DNA of 30,171 nt from a virus: IMG/VR virus record IMGVR_UViG_3300031841_002960, positions 1 to 30,171 of that record. One strand, given 5' to 3'. The stretch's first letter is position 1. Every line of letters begins with the position of its first letter. The position numbers and the translations under genes are program-made. This document shows, in pieces, positions 5,834-24,725 of the stretch. A model generated the notes under the pieces. That model saw nothing but the letters and a program-made list of their open reading frames with translations. It was not told the origin of the DNA and ran no database searches.

Positions 5834-6571
5834 TTAATCAGGCAGTCCCCAATTTCTTTTTGGGTCATTGCGTCTGTTTTTCCCAAATTGTTTCTCTCGT
5901 TCAATCGCTCTTTTGACGCTATCTGTGCCTATTTCTCTTACCTTCCCTGTCTGATTGTTTGTTACCTCAAAGTAAGGTGTAAATCTGCCCATCCGTGTTT
6001 TGCCAGAATTGCTCATATATGTGCCATCCCACAGGTGCTTTTTGATTGTGAAATGTCTAGATTGAAGTTCGTAGCATCCAGCCCCAAATCTTTTCCAGAA
6101 CACTTTGTCCATAAAATAAGATGACATAATCTCATACTTAGTCATCTCATCTGGGTTGGAGGCAAGGTGATCAATCCTGTCATAATAGGCTTGCTTGTTT
6201 GAGTAAGTCAGCTTTCCGCTTATCTTTACAGGTTCAGCATCTTTTTTTGCTTTACGCTCTGCTTTTTTTCTGTCTTTTTCTGCTTGCTTTTCATAGATAG
6301 CCAAGGCCGTTTTTGCATCCCGAACAGTTCCATCACACCAGCATTTTGAGCATGGCGGGTAGAACACATCATCATATGTGTGAACTATAGTCATTCCTTT
6401 TAGTGTTGGGTGCGGCGATTCCTCACCATTAGGCACCCCATAAAATCCTGTCTTTTTGTAATAGTCATAAAACGTATGACCACATAATTCACAACCCAGA
6501 TGACGCCGTTTTTCATAAATTGGTTTCATCATGTTTTCTTTTAGGGATTTTAATACTTCAAAACCTGCCAT
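5834..6571 (-). CDS. Hypothetical zinc-ribbon-like protein, 245 aa
   Basis: Two cysteine pairs near the N-terminus (CELC and CSKCWC) suggest a structural zinc site. They are followed by a Lys/Ala-rich helix (EKQAEKDRKKAERKAKKD) and a basic C-terminal domain with KTRMGRFTPYFEVTNNQTGKVREIG. I do not recognise the family. The start at 6571 is chosen because GGAG lies eight bases upstream; the frame is open to 6625, but that runs back through a GTAC palindrome and a terminator. Confidence 0.75.
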   Translation of the reverse strand: MAGFEVLKSLKENMMKPIYEKRRHLGCELCGHTFYDYYKKTGFYGVPNGEESPHPTLKGMTIVHTYDDVFYPPCSKCWCDGTVRDAKTALAIYEKQAEKDRKKAERKAKKDAEPVKISGKLTYSNKQAYYDRIDHLASNPDEMTKYEIMSSYFMDKVFWKRFGAGCYELQSRHFTIKKHLWDGTYMSNSGKTRMGRFTPYFEVTNNQTGKVREIGTDSVKRAIEREKQFGKNRRNDPKRNWGLPD

Positions 6572-12139: not shown

Positions 12140-12156
12140 GTGACCAAGGCAGTCAC
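12140..12156 (-). other. Alternative 5'-terminal hairpin after ribozyme 1
   Basis: GUGACU (12156-12151), loop GCCUU, GGUCAC (12145-12140). The first strand is also the 3' strand of hammerhead stem I, so the two folds exclude each other. After cleavage it would be the first structure of the AAA ATPase mRNA. Confidence 0.7.
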
Positions 12157-12210
12157 GACACCGCCTGAGCGGTGTTTCGCCAGTGCCTCACGCTGGCTCA
12201 TCAGGTGACT
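12151..12210 (-). ncRNA. Hammerhead ribozyme 1 (type I)
   Basis: Read on the minus strand: stem I 12210-12205 with 12156-12151 (six pairs); core CUGAUGA 12204-12198; stem II 12197-12193 with 12183-12179; GAAA 12178-12175; stem III 12175-12169 with 12164-12158 (seven pairs, loop UCAG); cleavage after C12157 in GUC. All invariant core bases are present. Loop II GAGGC (12189-12185) can pair with GCCUU (12150-12146) just past stem I. The upstream gene's UAG shares two bases with stem I. Cleavage would separate the gene ending at 12209 from the AAA ATPase gene. Confidence 0.94.
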
Positions 12211-12883
12211 AAAACTGATCAGTCATTGCATTGATCTGATCATTCTCTTTTGCGACACGGTCAGCCGTTGCCTTGGCCTCAGCCTCTGCCGCAATCCGCT
12301 CACGCAATTTGTCTTCCAACAAATCTTTGAATGATTGGATTTCATCCAGATCTAGGTTTTTGTCTTCGTCCAAAAAGCCGCCAAGGAACTTGTCCCCCTC
12401 AACTTTTTGTCCGGCCTCAACCTTCGTTGACCGCCGACCGACAATCCTTTCGACCATCTTTTGGACACGGGTCTTGGTATCATCACCGGCAACAGCCTTA
12501 ATCAGCTTCGCCTCGCTAGTGATACCAGCATCGTTAAAGATATCAGAGACCATTGACGGGGTGATGTTGTTACCATTGATGCCGAAAATAAATCTGGCAC
12601 CGGCGGTGTTTTTGACCATCTTGTTTGCCATGCCCTCAGACATGCTCACTTGCGGCATGTTGATGAGCTGGTTCTTGATATCCCGACCGGTCTTTGTTGG
12701 AAAATTATTCTTGTCGGTCAGGTTAATGTTTGCGGTTGCCGCGATCATCACGCAGTAGCTATTCAGCTTGAGCGTGTTGGCTTCGCCGGTGGCATCCTTA
12801 GCGGTGCCGCGCAGGGTTTGGATTTGAGCTTCGTTGTTGCCAATTTTTTCGATGTTGGCGGCATCAATGACGATTGTCTGCAT
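12209..12883 (-). CDS. Hypothetical protein, 224 aa
   Basis: Starts MQTIVIDAANIEKIGNNEAQIQTLRG and has a conserved-looking region (LNSYCVMIAATANINLTDKNNFPTKTGRDIKNQL). The C-terminus is a coiled coil (DKLRERIAAEAEAKATADRVAKENDQIN). The family is not recognised. The ATG at 12883 is chosen because the ATG at 12895 lies in the AATGGAG ribosome site. Bracketed by hammerhead ribozymes 2 (upstream) and 1 (overlapping its stop), so its mRNA could be released as a single gene. Its place directly before the MoxR ATPase suggests an adaptor or substrate role, as inference. Confidence 0.7.
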   Translation of the reverse strand: MQTIVIDAANIEKIGNNEAQIQTLRGTAKDATGEANTLKLNSYCVMIAATANINLTDKNNFPTKTGRDIKNQLINMPQVSMSEGMANKMVKNTAGARFIFGINGNNITPSMVSDIFNDAGITSEAKLIKAVAGDDTKTRVQKMVERIVGRRSTKVEAGQKVEGDKFLGGFLDEDKNLDLDEIQSFKDLLEDKLRERIAAEAEAKATADRVAKENDQINAMTDQF

Positions 12884-12908: not shown

Positions 12909-12923
12909 GTAGCAGGACGCTAC
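12909..12923 (-). other. Alternative 5'-terminal hairpin after ribozyme 2
   Basis: GUAGC-GUCCU-GCUAC, five perfect pairs, starting at the base immediately after the predicted cleavage site. The first strand is also the 3' strand of hammerhead stem I. Confidence 0.7.
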
Positions 12924-12976
12924 GACCCAGCAGTGCTGGGTTTCGCCAGTGTCCTAAGCTGGCATCATCAGGTAGC
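12919..12976 (-). ncRNA. Hammerhead ribozyme 2 (type I)
   Basis: Minus strand: stem I 12976-12972 with 12923-12919; core CUGAUGA 12971-12965; an extra U at 12964; stem II 12963-12959 with 12949-12945; GAAA 12944-12941; stem III 12941-12935 with 12931-12925 (seven pairs, loop ACU); cleavage after C12924. Loop II AGGAC (12955-12951) is complementary to GUCCU (12918-12914). Stem I abuts the UAA stop of the gene ending at 12977. Stem III differs in sequence from ribozyme 1 but keeps pairing. Confidence 0.94.
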
Positions 12977-13475: not shown

Positions 13476-13490
13476 ATAGCAGGACGCTAC
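13476..13490 (-). other. Alternative 5'-terminal hairpin after ribozyme 3
   Basis: GUAGC-GUCCU-GCUAU, five pairs with one G-U, beginning at the first base after the predicted cleavage site; mutually exclusive with stem I. Confidence 0.65.
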
Positions 13491-13544
13491 GACACCGCCG
13501 TAGCGGTGTTTCGCTGGTGTCCTACGCCAGCATCGTCAGGTAGC
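13486..13544 (-). ncRNA. Hammerhead ribozyme 3 (type I), overlapping a gene end
   Basis: Minus strand: stem I 13544-13540 with 13490-13486; core CUGACGA 13539-13533 (C at the variable position 7); an extra U at 13532; stem II 13531-13527 with 13517-13513; GAAA 13512-13509; stem III 13509-13503 with 13498-13492 (seven pairs, loop UACG); cleavage after C13491. Stem II (GCUGG/CCAGC) covaries with GCCAG/CUGGC in ribozymes 1 and 2. Loop II AGGAC (13523-13519) pairs with GUCCU (13485-13481). The last seven codons (SYLTMLA) and the UAG of the upstream gene encode stem I, the core and the stem II 5' strand. Confidence 0.94.
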
Positions 13545-13857
13545 TTTTCATTTCTTTAGAGCGGCGGTCAAAAAACTTGCCGCCTCGCACAATGCTAGGC
13601 TCATCATCCCAATGGCCTTCGCGGTAGTCGATCTGAGCGCGATTGTCGAGGTCATCAACAAACACCCTCATCACATCCAACCTGACCATTGTTGAAGGCT
13701 TGATGTTGTCGCCCAACAATTCTTCCAGAAAGGCGCGGTATGCTCCGCGCAATTCTGCTGGTTCAACATTACCAGCACACTCATGAAAATTTGAAATCTC
13801 ATTGTGGTTGTACTGTGATGACATATTGAATTTGAATTTGAATGGTATGGTTTGCAT
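13522..13857 (-). CDS. Hypothetical protein, 111 aa
   Basis: First gene of the ribozyme-bearing operon. Reads MQTIPFKFKFNMSSQYNHNEISNFHECAGNVEPAEL...YREGHWDDEPSIVRGGKFFDRRSKEMKSYLTMLA; no family recognised. Its Shine-Dalgarno AGGGG (13868-13864), six bases from the ATG, lies in stem III of hammerhead 4. Its C-terminal codons form the core of hammerhead 3. The gene is thus flanked and overlapped by ribozymes on both sides. Confidence 0.7.
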   Translation of the reverse strand: MQTIPFKFKFNMSSQYNHNEISNFHECAGNVEPAELRGAYRAFLEELLGDNIKPSTMVRLDVMRVFVDDLDNRAQIDYREGHWDDEPSIVRGGKFFDRRSKEMKSYLTMLA

Positions 13858-13861
13858 CGCA

Positions 13862-13918
13862 ATCCCCTGTTTCGTTGGTTACTCATCAGACATGGCTACC
13901 AGTGCCATGCGACAGGAT
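13862..13918 (-). ncRNA. Hammerhead ribozyme 4 (type III)
   Basis: Circularly permuted order on the minus strand: stem III 5' strand UCCUGU 13917-13912; cleavage after C13911; stem I 13910-13904 with 13896-13890 (seven pairs, one G-U, loop ACUGGUA); core CUGAUGA 13889-13883; short stem II 13882-13881 with 13875-13874; GAAA 13873-13870; stem III 3' strand 13870-13865. UGGU in loop I (13901-13898) is complementary to ACCA in loop II (13879-13876), the loop-loop contact typical of natural hammerheads. Stem III holds the ribosome-binding site of the gene at 13857. Stem II is only two pairs, so confidence is a little lower. Confidence 0.85.
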
Positions 13919-14042
13919 TTTGCTACAGTGTCGGGTCTCTCTCGACTGCCCGATTACAGCGACACGCATGCCGCCTCAGTCTAACCACCGCAATCGAACA
14001 TCCAAGAATTAGGCCTGTTCAAATTTCGCTTGGGCATATGCG

Positions 14043-14122
14043 CTAGGGACGCAATCAAAGCCGTAGTGCGGTGGGTTCCAGTCTTCGGGGGTGCTATCCC
14101 CTGCCCCGTTGGGCGATCCTAG
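14043..14122. ncRNA. Cloverleaf-like folded element, 80 nt
   Basis: CTAGG (14043-14047) and CCTAG (14118-14122) enclose three hairpins: CCG/CGG (14061-14071), GGGG/CCCC with a seven-base loop (14087-14101) and GCCC/GGGC (14103-14114). Size and plan resemble a tRNA, but there is no TTCRANY loop on either strand. The strand is unclear; it may be part of the leftward leader. Confidence 0.35.
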
Positions 14123-14261
14123 TTGCGAGTGTTTAGCGTTTAGCCTCGTACAAAAATTTGAAAAAAAAACCTTATTCATGTCCGTACACTATTATTCAGC
14201 GTCTGTAAATACACTAAATGCACATAAATGCATTTAATGCACAAAAAGACATCTGCAAGAT

Positions 14262-14277
14262 TTGTACCATCGTACAA
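14262..14277. promoter_or_regulatory. GTAC palindrome, site 5
   Basis: TTGTAC-CATC-GTACAA with perfect arms in the main intergenic region; half sites (CGTACAAA, CCGTACAC) lie nearby at about 14148 and 14182. Confidence 0.6.
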
Positions 14278-14353
14278 ACCCGATCAAGCGAAGCGCATTC
14301 AGCCCCTCTCATATGTATAACGAATGAGGAACCCACTTTATTGTTTCGTCCCC

Positions 14354-14382
14354 AAAAAAAATCATCTGCCACTCTTAGATGA
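14354..14382 (-). terminator. Possible weak terminator or attenuator, leftward
   Basis: On the minus strand TCATCT pairs with AGATGA (14382-14377 with 14367-14362), followed by eight T. The stem is short and AT-rich. No gene lies upstream on this strand, so it could act as an attenuator in the leader of the ribozyme operon if a promoter lies beyond 14400. Confidence 0.35.
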
Positions 14383-14427
14383 CCCATAACTTTTCGACAC
14401 TTATAATTGTATGAGGGTTTTGATTTG

Positions 14428-14473
14428 AATATTTGTGTGTGTACAAACAAAATATTTGTGTGTGTACAAACAA
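14428..14473. repeat. Perfect 23-bp tandem repeat
   Basis: Two identical adjacent 23-base units (14428-14450 and 14451-14473), each containing TTTGTGTGTGTACAAA, a degenerate version of the GTAC palindrome. A further TTTGTGTACAAA occurs near 14680. Likely a regulator or initiator-protein binding cluster. Confidence 0.75.
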
Positions 14474-14555
14474 GTTTGTTCATGGTCTGTTCATGGTGTG
14501 GAACAAAACGTGAAAACGAGCATAGCAGGCCGCTGAGGGGGGTCTGGAGTTTCCC

Positions 14556-14834
14556 GTGTATCATTATGACCAAAAAGACCTAAAACGCCTGTACGGGCTT
14601 CTATGGGCGATTAAACGGCATGAACAAAACAAGAACATCGCCATTTTGGGGGTTTTTAGGCACCTTCAGGAAAACTTGTTTGTGTACAAACAATTTAGGT
14701 CAATCTGGTGGGGTGTGCGGCAGACATGGTATGATCTGGACAGGCAAAAATCCCGACCAAGCGACAGCGCATATTGGCGGCACTCAATAGGGAATAGACA
14801 ATGGATAAAGACAAAGACAAGCCATCACATTTAA
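14556..14834 (+). CDS. Possible small protein, GTG start
   Basis: 92-codon frame with protein-like content (YGLLWAIKRHEQNKNIAILGVFRHLQENLFVYKQF) and GGAG six bases before the GTG. It overlaps the terminase small subunit start by 34 bases, which is unusual here. Family unknown. It could be spurious, so confidence is modest. Confidence 0.42.
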   Translation: MYHYDQKDLKRLYGLLWAIKRHEQNKNIAILGVFRHLQENLFVYKQFRSIWWGVRQTWYDLDRQKSRPSDSAYWRHSIGNRQWIKTKTSHHI

Positions 14835-24229: not shown

Positions 24230-24296
24230 GTATACTGTATAGGAACCTTGACAGTCGCATGGTGTGGCTGACATTAGCCTAGACAAGGAGTTCCTC

Positions 24297-24725
24297 ATGG
24301 CTACTACAACTTTCGCTGGTCCAATTAAGGCTGGCTCAATTCGTGAAGGCGCGTCAGCAAACGTAGGCTTTGTGCGTATGGCGCAAACAGCAGACTGGAC
24401 ACAGTCAACAACCGCCGCTGACACCGGAATCACAATTCCTGCCAATAGTCAGATTACTGAAATCCGCATCTACATCACAACGGCTACAACTGCCGCTAAC
24501 ATCAGCATGGGCTTTAGCTCAACAACTACAGAACTGTTTACTGGCCTAGCCGCTGGCACAGCCGCAAACGTAGTTAAGCTGGGGTCAGCAGGCACAATTG
24601 CCGACATTGATGATTGGGTAGATGTAGGCTCTTCTGATGTTCCTATCTTCATTGACTTCTCCGCTGGTACAGCGGGCGCTGGTTATGTGACTGTAGAATA
24701 CATTCAAAACATCAATAACGCCTAA
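24297..24725 (+). CDS. Virion structural protein, 142 aa
   Basis: MATTTFAGPIKAGSIREGASANVGFVRMAQTADWTQSTTAADTGITIPANSQITEIRIYITTATTAANISMGF...: Thr/Ala/Gly-rich beta protein with almost no Lys. Related proteins follow the capsid gene in many marine phages. The ATG at 24297 has AAGGAG at the right distance. May be a fibre or decoration protein; not proven. Confidence 0.72.
   Translation: MATTTFAGPIKAGSIREGASANVGFVRMAQTADWTQSTTAADTGITIPANSQITEIRIYITTATTAANISMGFSSTTTELFTGLAAGTAANVVKLGSAGTIADIDDWVDVGSSDVPIFIDFSAGTAGAGYVTVEYIQNINNA

Follow-up and report, generated by a model that had tools for sequence, protein, structure and literature searches.

The window analyzed here, the full 30,171 nucleotides of IMG/VR virus record IMGVR_UViG_3300031841_002960, contains a type III hammerhead ribozyme (ribozyme 4) directly before its first early gene (gene 1), followed by three type I hammerheads on the same strand (Table 1). 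The property common to this subfamily is its position: type III ribozymes lie just before start codons and type I ribozymes just after stop codons. We propose, with a probability of about 0.58, that these are natural processing ribozymes that act in the manner of the engineered insulator RiboJ and divide an early transcript into mRNAs, each starting with a 5'-hydroxyl and a hairpin cap. The evidence consists of sequence, covariation, the positional rule, and predicted product hairpins, and from these we infer cleavage in vivo, stabilization of the products, and an effect on translation.

Table 1. Hammerhead ribozymes, gene 1, and its Shine-Dalgarno (SD) sequence in the window
Feature	Position	Strand	Details
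Type III hammerhead ribozyme (ribozyme 4) with complementary loops	13865..13917	-	Predicted cut between 13911 and 13910
Stem III 5' strand UCCUGU	13912..13917	-	Complement of SD
Stem I, 7 bp, GCAUGGC/GCCAUGU, loop ACUGGUA	13910-13904/13896-13890	-	Would form 5'-terminal hairpin of cut mRNA
Core CUGAUGA	13889-13883	-	Ribozyme 4
Stem II, 2 bp, GU/AC, loop AACCA	13882-13881/13875-13874	-	Loop complementary to loop I UGGU
GAAA	13873-13870	-	Ribozyme 4 core
Stem III 3' strand ACAGGG	13870-13865	-	Pairs with UCCUGU; 6-bp stem III
Shine-Dalgarno AGGGG	13864..13868	-	Bases 13868-13865 within stem III
Gene 1, 111 aa	13522..13857	-	First early gene; at least 33 relatives in viral contigs
Type I hammerhead overlapping gene 1 stop	13486..13544	-	Predicted cut 13491/13490; product hairpin GUAGC-GUCCU-GCUAU
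Type I hammerhead after gene 3 stop	12919..12976	-	Predicted cut 12924/12923; product hairpin GUAGC-GUCCU-GCUAC
Type I hammerhead at gene 4 stop	12150..12211	-	Predicted cut 12157/12156; product hairpin GUGAC-UGCCUUG-GUCAC

Read on the minus strand, ribozyme 4 is UCCUGUC/GCAUGGC-ACUGGUA-GCCAUGU-CUGAUGA-GU-AACCA-AC-GAAACAGGG, where the slash marks the predicted cut, and is followed by GAUUGCG and the AUG at 13857. It has the CUGANGA...GAAA core and an NUH cleavage site, here the GUC that ends at C13911, and the stem I pair adjoining the cut is G-U. Stem III is open and stems I and II are closed by loops, which is the type III architecture. The full hammerhead descriptor had no matches in 40 dinucleotide shuffles of the window and none in 1.29 Mb of shuffled loci; a further core-like match in the window (9705-9670, inside a coding gene) fails this descriptor. 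The Rfam hammerhead match to ribozyme 4 was subthreshold (22 bits versus a cutoff of 37, and as type II), and the relatives described below were likewise missed at the cutoff, which argues that the Rfam models do not cover this variant; such a match is a detection aid and not a defining property of a hammerhead. Rfam matches to flavivirus cHP, the L20 leader, and snoRNA were far below their cutoffs and were taken as chance. A Mu-gpT-DE RNA (RF03012) match on the plus strand of the window (24246-24299, ending in CAUG) scored 63 bits, above its cutoff of 49.

Relatives were collected with a pattern that fixed the loops and core and left stem III free, which returned at least 64 viral contigs; loci were sampled by sequence patterns, among the matches listed, and gene calls were mechanical. 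After removal of near duplicates, 38 ribozymes remained for covariation analysis. Of the 266 stem I pairs in this set, 265 were formed, with as many as six pair types at a position; for stem III, five pairs were formed in 168 of 190 instances, with several pair types and far above shuffled sequences. The outer two of the six tested stem III positions were paired in only 22 and 17 of the 38, so stem III is about 5 bp long in the subfamily and 6 bp in the window. Of the three helices around the core, stems I and III thus show covariation, and the 2-bp stem II is too short to do so. The complementarity of loop I UGGU and loop II ACCA, which the sequence-only reading had pointed out, is present in ribozyme 4, and relatives carry alternative pairs such as UAGUA/UUACU and UUCGUA/ACACG; set-wide loop I-loop II pairing was 3.63, compared with a mean of 3.23 and a maximum of 3.69 in shuffles. 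The core, the three stems, the absence of the descriptor from shuffled sequence, and the strong covariation confirm the earlier assignment of a real-looking type III hammerhead, beyond what chance would produce, with cleavage predicted.

It is very improbable that ribozyme 4 is functionless, whether decayed or slow. A decayed copy does occur in one relative (L005), where it has lost its 5' strands and lies before the gene preceding the gene 1 homolog, and the short stem II of the window could be read in the same way. However, the core of ribozyme 4 is intact, all stems and the complementary loops are present, and ribozymes of this type normally have a stem II of 1 to 2 bp; very fast cleavage has been published for a pseudoknotted hammerhead (PMC11300833).

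The positional survey covered 184 type I and 108 type III nonredundant matches, among the matches listed. Type I ribozymes abutted the upstream stop codon (-12 to +5) in 111 of 175 cases, compared with 2 of 104 for type III and 4% at random, and type III ribozymes lay within 30 nt of an ATG in 81 of 108 cases, compared with 20% at random. Type I ribozymes were also within 30 nt of an ATG in 122 of 184 cases; this follows from short intergenic gaps, and the stop codon contrast is the discriminating one. Among same-strand neighbors, type III preceded type I 26 times and the reverse order occurred 5 times (redundant contigs included), and the order in the window is III-gene-I-genes-I-gene-I. This placement and order suggest that the body of a ribozyme generally remains with the gene that it abuts, at the 5' end for type III and at the 3' end for type I. 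In two relatives (L037 and L038), the upstream gene and the ribozyme are shared and the downstream genes differ, with divergence starting right at the SD; this is as expected of a modular leader, in which the ribozyme would mark a mosaic boundary. The cultured Bacteroidota phage Cellulophaga phage phi18:3 (L353) has a type I hammerhead at approximately 5995 to 6050, directly after the gp050 stop, with an ardA gene about 0.9 kb further downstream.

Each of the four predicted downstream products in the window opens with a perfect hairpin, formed from nucleotide 1 onward. The type III 3' product starts with stem I, and in the type I products it is the released stem I strand that forms the terminal hairpin, with a second copy of its partner located downstream. 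This was unexpected: in the window clade, 16 of 30 type I products have a perfect 5'-terminal hairpin versus 2.0 expected, with covarying sequences, and the wider type I set shows a slight excess (33 of 153 versus 22.1 expected). In the window, a second copy of the stem I 5' strand follows each type I hammerhead, so that the cut product can refold into the hairpin (13490-13476, 12923-12909, and 12156-12140, minus strand), and loop II of each type I ribozyme complements the bases just past stem I (GGAC/GUCC, GGAC/GUCC, and GGCA/UGCC). The product hairpin and the uncut stem I are mutually exclusive, and the hairpin could also serve as an anti-ribozyme fold.

A 5'-terminal hairpin with a 5'-hydroxyl is a known stabilizer of bacterial mRNA. 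In the scheme that we propose, the type III hammerhead, presumably constitutive and fast, would trim the early transcript by cutting its leader between 13911 and 13910, and the gene 1 mRNA would then begin with a 5'-hydroxyl and the 7-bp stem I hairpin, with the SD close behind. Cleavage by the type I ribozyme at the end of gene 1 would complete a single-gene mRNA of about 420 nt, and the two further type I ribozymes would separate the genes that follow. The main benefit would be the definition and protection of the 5' end and its insulation from upstream RNA, as with the engineered RiboJ. A leader of about 800 nt occupies positions 13920-14700 of the window (minus strand); it has TTTGTACACACACAAA-like repeats and an open reading frame of 56 amino acids with a protein-like composition (ATG near 14179). 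A sigma-70 promoter was not recognized on the minus strand upstream of gene 1. Circularization of the mRNA through ligation of the 5'-hydroxyl and the cyclic phosphate is conceivable; the 2011 study of phage hammerheads found no circles (PMC3088659).

The sequence-only reading had placed the ribosome-binding site of gene 1 in stem III and had proposed that self-cleavage turns on its translation. The placement stands, since four of the five SD bases are paired in the stem III 3' strand, opposite UCCUGU, with a 6-nt spacer to the ATG at 13857, and this start is backed by homologs that begin at the same methionine. The gene 1 protein had no match among annotated phages, and a plasmid search also returned none. 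In the modeled fold of the uncut window RNA, the SD lies inside a helix: the probability of being unpaired is 0.03 to 0.1 for four of the five SD bases, versus roughly 0.1 to 0.9 in the 3' product, and the modeled cost of opening the SD falls from 5.3 to 2.8 kcal/mol upon cleavage, a relief of 2.5 kcal/mol. As the SD supplies the 3' strand of stem III, translation of uncut gene 1 RNA should also be poor, a local and secondary effect. Unless there is evidence to the contrary, a hammerhead is taken to cleave constitutively, and the proposed switch would then amount to a one-shot license rather than to regulation. The 5' fragment had been described as held by only about six pairs. The six-pair duplex has a predicted energy of -7.0 kcal/mol, and an outer GCAA/UUGC helix could add pairs (-12.8 kcal/mol in total); since 19% of shuffled leaders do as well, that helix is within chance and was rejected as a special lock.

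The position of the SD across the subfamily was examined in 46 relatives with a start codon, found without fixing stem III, among the matches listed. In 14 of these, 3 nt or more of the SD lay within stem III, and in 7, 1 to 2 nt did, so that capture recurs before different genes, clearly in the former and marginally in the latter; the remaining 25 had no overlap. Capture as a general rule therefore fails on homologs with the site outside stem III, a case that the sequence-only reading had itself named as counting against it. Stem III and the start codon were separated by a median of 12.5 nt. GAAA-to-start distances crowd at 11 to 16 nt, close to the shortest spacing that can accommodate an SD, and tail off to 50 nt. 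A second pattern scan, biased toward CCTGTC/ACAGG, returned many type III ribozymes whose stem II is longer and which lie about 18 to 30 nt before starts; most of them have no SD within stem III. The overlap counts, the crowding of distances, and the second scan together argue that what is conserved is proximity to the start, with SD capture as a frequent by-product.

In the cultured Vibrio phage Phriendly (MN062185, L352), an early gene is preceded by a type III-like hammerhead (1495-1548) whose loops are complementary, and the annotated ribosome-binding site overlaps stem III. The core is CUGAAUGA, with one extra base, and activity is therefore uncertain. The hammerhead region (1495-1557) lies behind about 1.4 kb without annotated genes.

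These counts bear on two further explanations. The first is that the primary function is to license translation, with the SD held until self-cleavage and gene 1 translated only from cut RNA. The buried SD of the uncut window fold, its capture in 14 to 21 of the 46 relatives and in Phriendly, and the 5- to 100-fold effects of engineered ribozymes with the SD in a stem (PMC5052635) are all consistent with this, but we consider it doubtful. More than half of the relatives have a free SD, as do the three later genes of the same operon (three of the four window ribozymes), and the closest gene 1 homologs (88 to 90% identity) have a plain SD and no intact ribozyme before gene 1. Median relief of SD opening was just 0.3 kcal/mol over 12 clear overlappers, with an energy model that ignores the pseudoknot, which makes the relief figures weak evidence either way; a thermodynamic lock common to the family was not seen. 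Gated translation is thus plausible at gene 1 but is not a conserved function, and we likewise consider it unlikely that ribozyme 4 represents a natural translation-licensing ribozyme within a widespread phage system in which type III ribozymes build the 5' ends, and type I ribozymes the 3' ends, of single-gene messages. The second explanation is compaction, in which the ribozyme sits as near to the start as the SD allows and the SD doubles as a stem III strand, with no effect on translation. The crowding at 11 to 16 nt fits this, whereas the uncut window fold buries the SD, so that some effect would be expected whenever the RNA is uncut; we regard compaction alone as a possible, tentative account, and compaction can hold together with the processing and insulation that we favor.

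The role of phage hammerheads has been in question since 2011 or earlier. Perreault et al. (2011; PMC3088659) described clustered phage hammerheads and proposed that they process transcripts; those of Agrobacterium tumefaciens cut in Escherichia coli, and loop pseudoknots were described in about 40%. As in the window, the clustered prophage hammerheads of that study flank single genes in phage operons, are of more than one type, and have a short stem II; they also have a pseudoknot between loops I and II, for which ribozyme 4 has a candidate in UGGU/ACCA. The window subfamily differs in falling below Rfam thresholds; a term search of that paper found no mention of the Shine-Dalgarno site, and its available text does not mention the placement of type III at starts and type I at stops. 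HHphage of haloviruses HF1 and HF2 resembles ribozyme 4 in lying upstream of the first early-operon gene, by 13 nt, and its mRNA 5' end was mapped to no more than 3 nt from the cut; it differs in its variant core and archaeal host, and the available text makes no claim of an SD in a stem (PMC3088659). A search of the openly accessible literature turned up no description of SD capture by stem III in nature, nor of the placement rule.

Two engineered systems are also related, namely, RiboJ, in which the ribosome-binding site is outside the ribozyme, and the SD-sequestering ribozyme switches reportedly made by Wieland and Hartig in 2008. RiboJ is a synthetic hammerhead in the 5' untranslated region that normalizes the leader, leaves a hairpin after the cut, and makes the cut mRNA more stable (PMC7536230, PMC6206723), with transcript increased about 2-fold and protein 2- to 10-fold (PMC6206723). 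In twister versions of the SD-sequestering switches, the SD is held in a ribozyme stem and freed by cleavage, as at gene 1; these are engineered and use stems P1 and P3, whereas ribozyme 4 is natural, uses stem III, and has no known ligand (PMC5052635). With the placement rule, products capped by hairpins, and the same layout in a cultured phage of Vibrio natriegens, processing and insulation become directly testable, and the phage system would be a natural counterpart to two devices of synthetic biology, ribozyme insulators and SD-releasing ribozymes.
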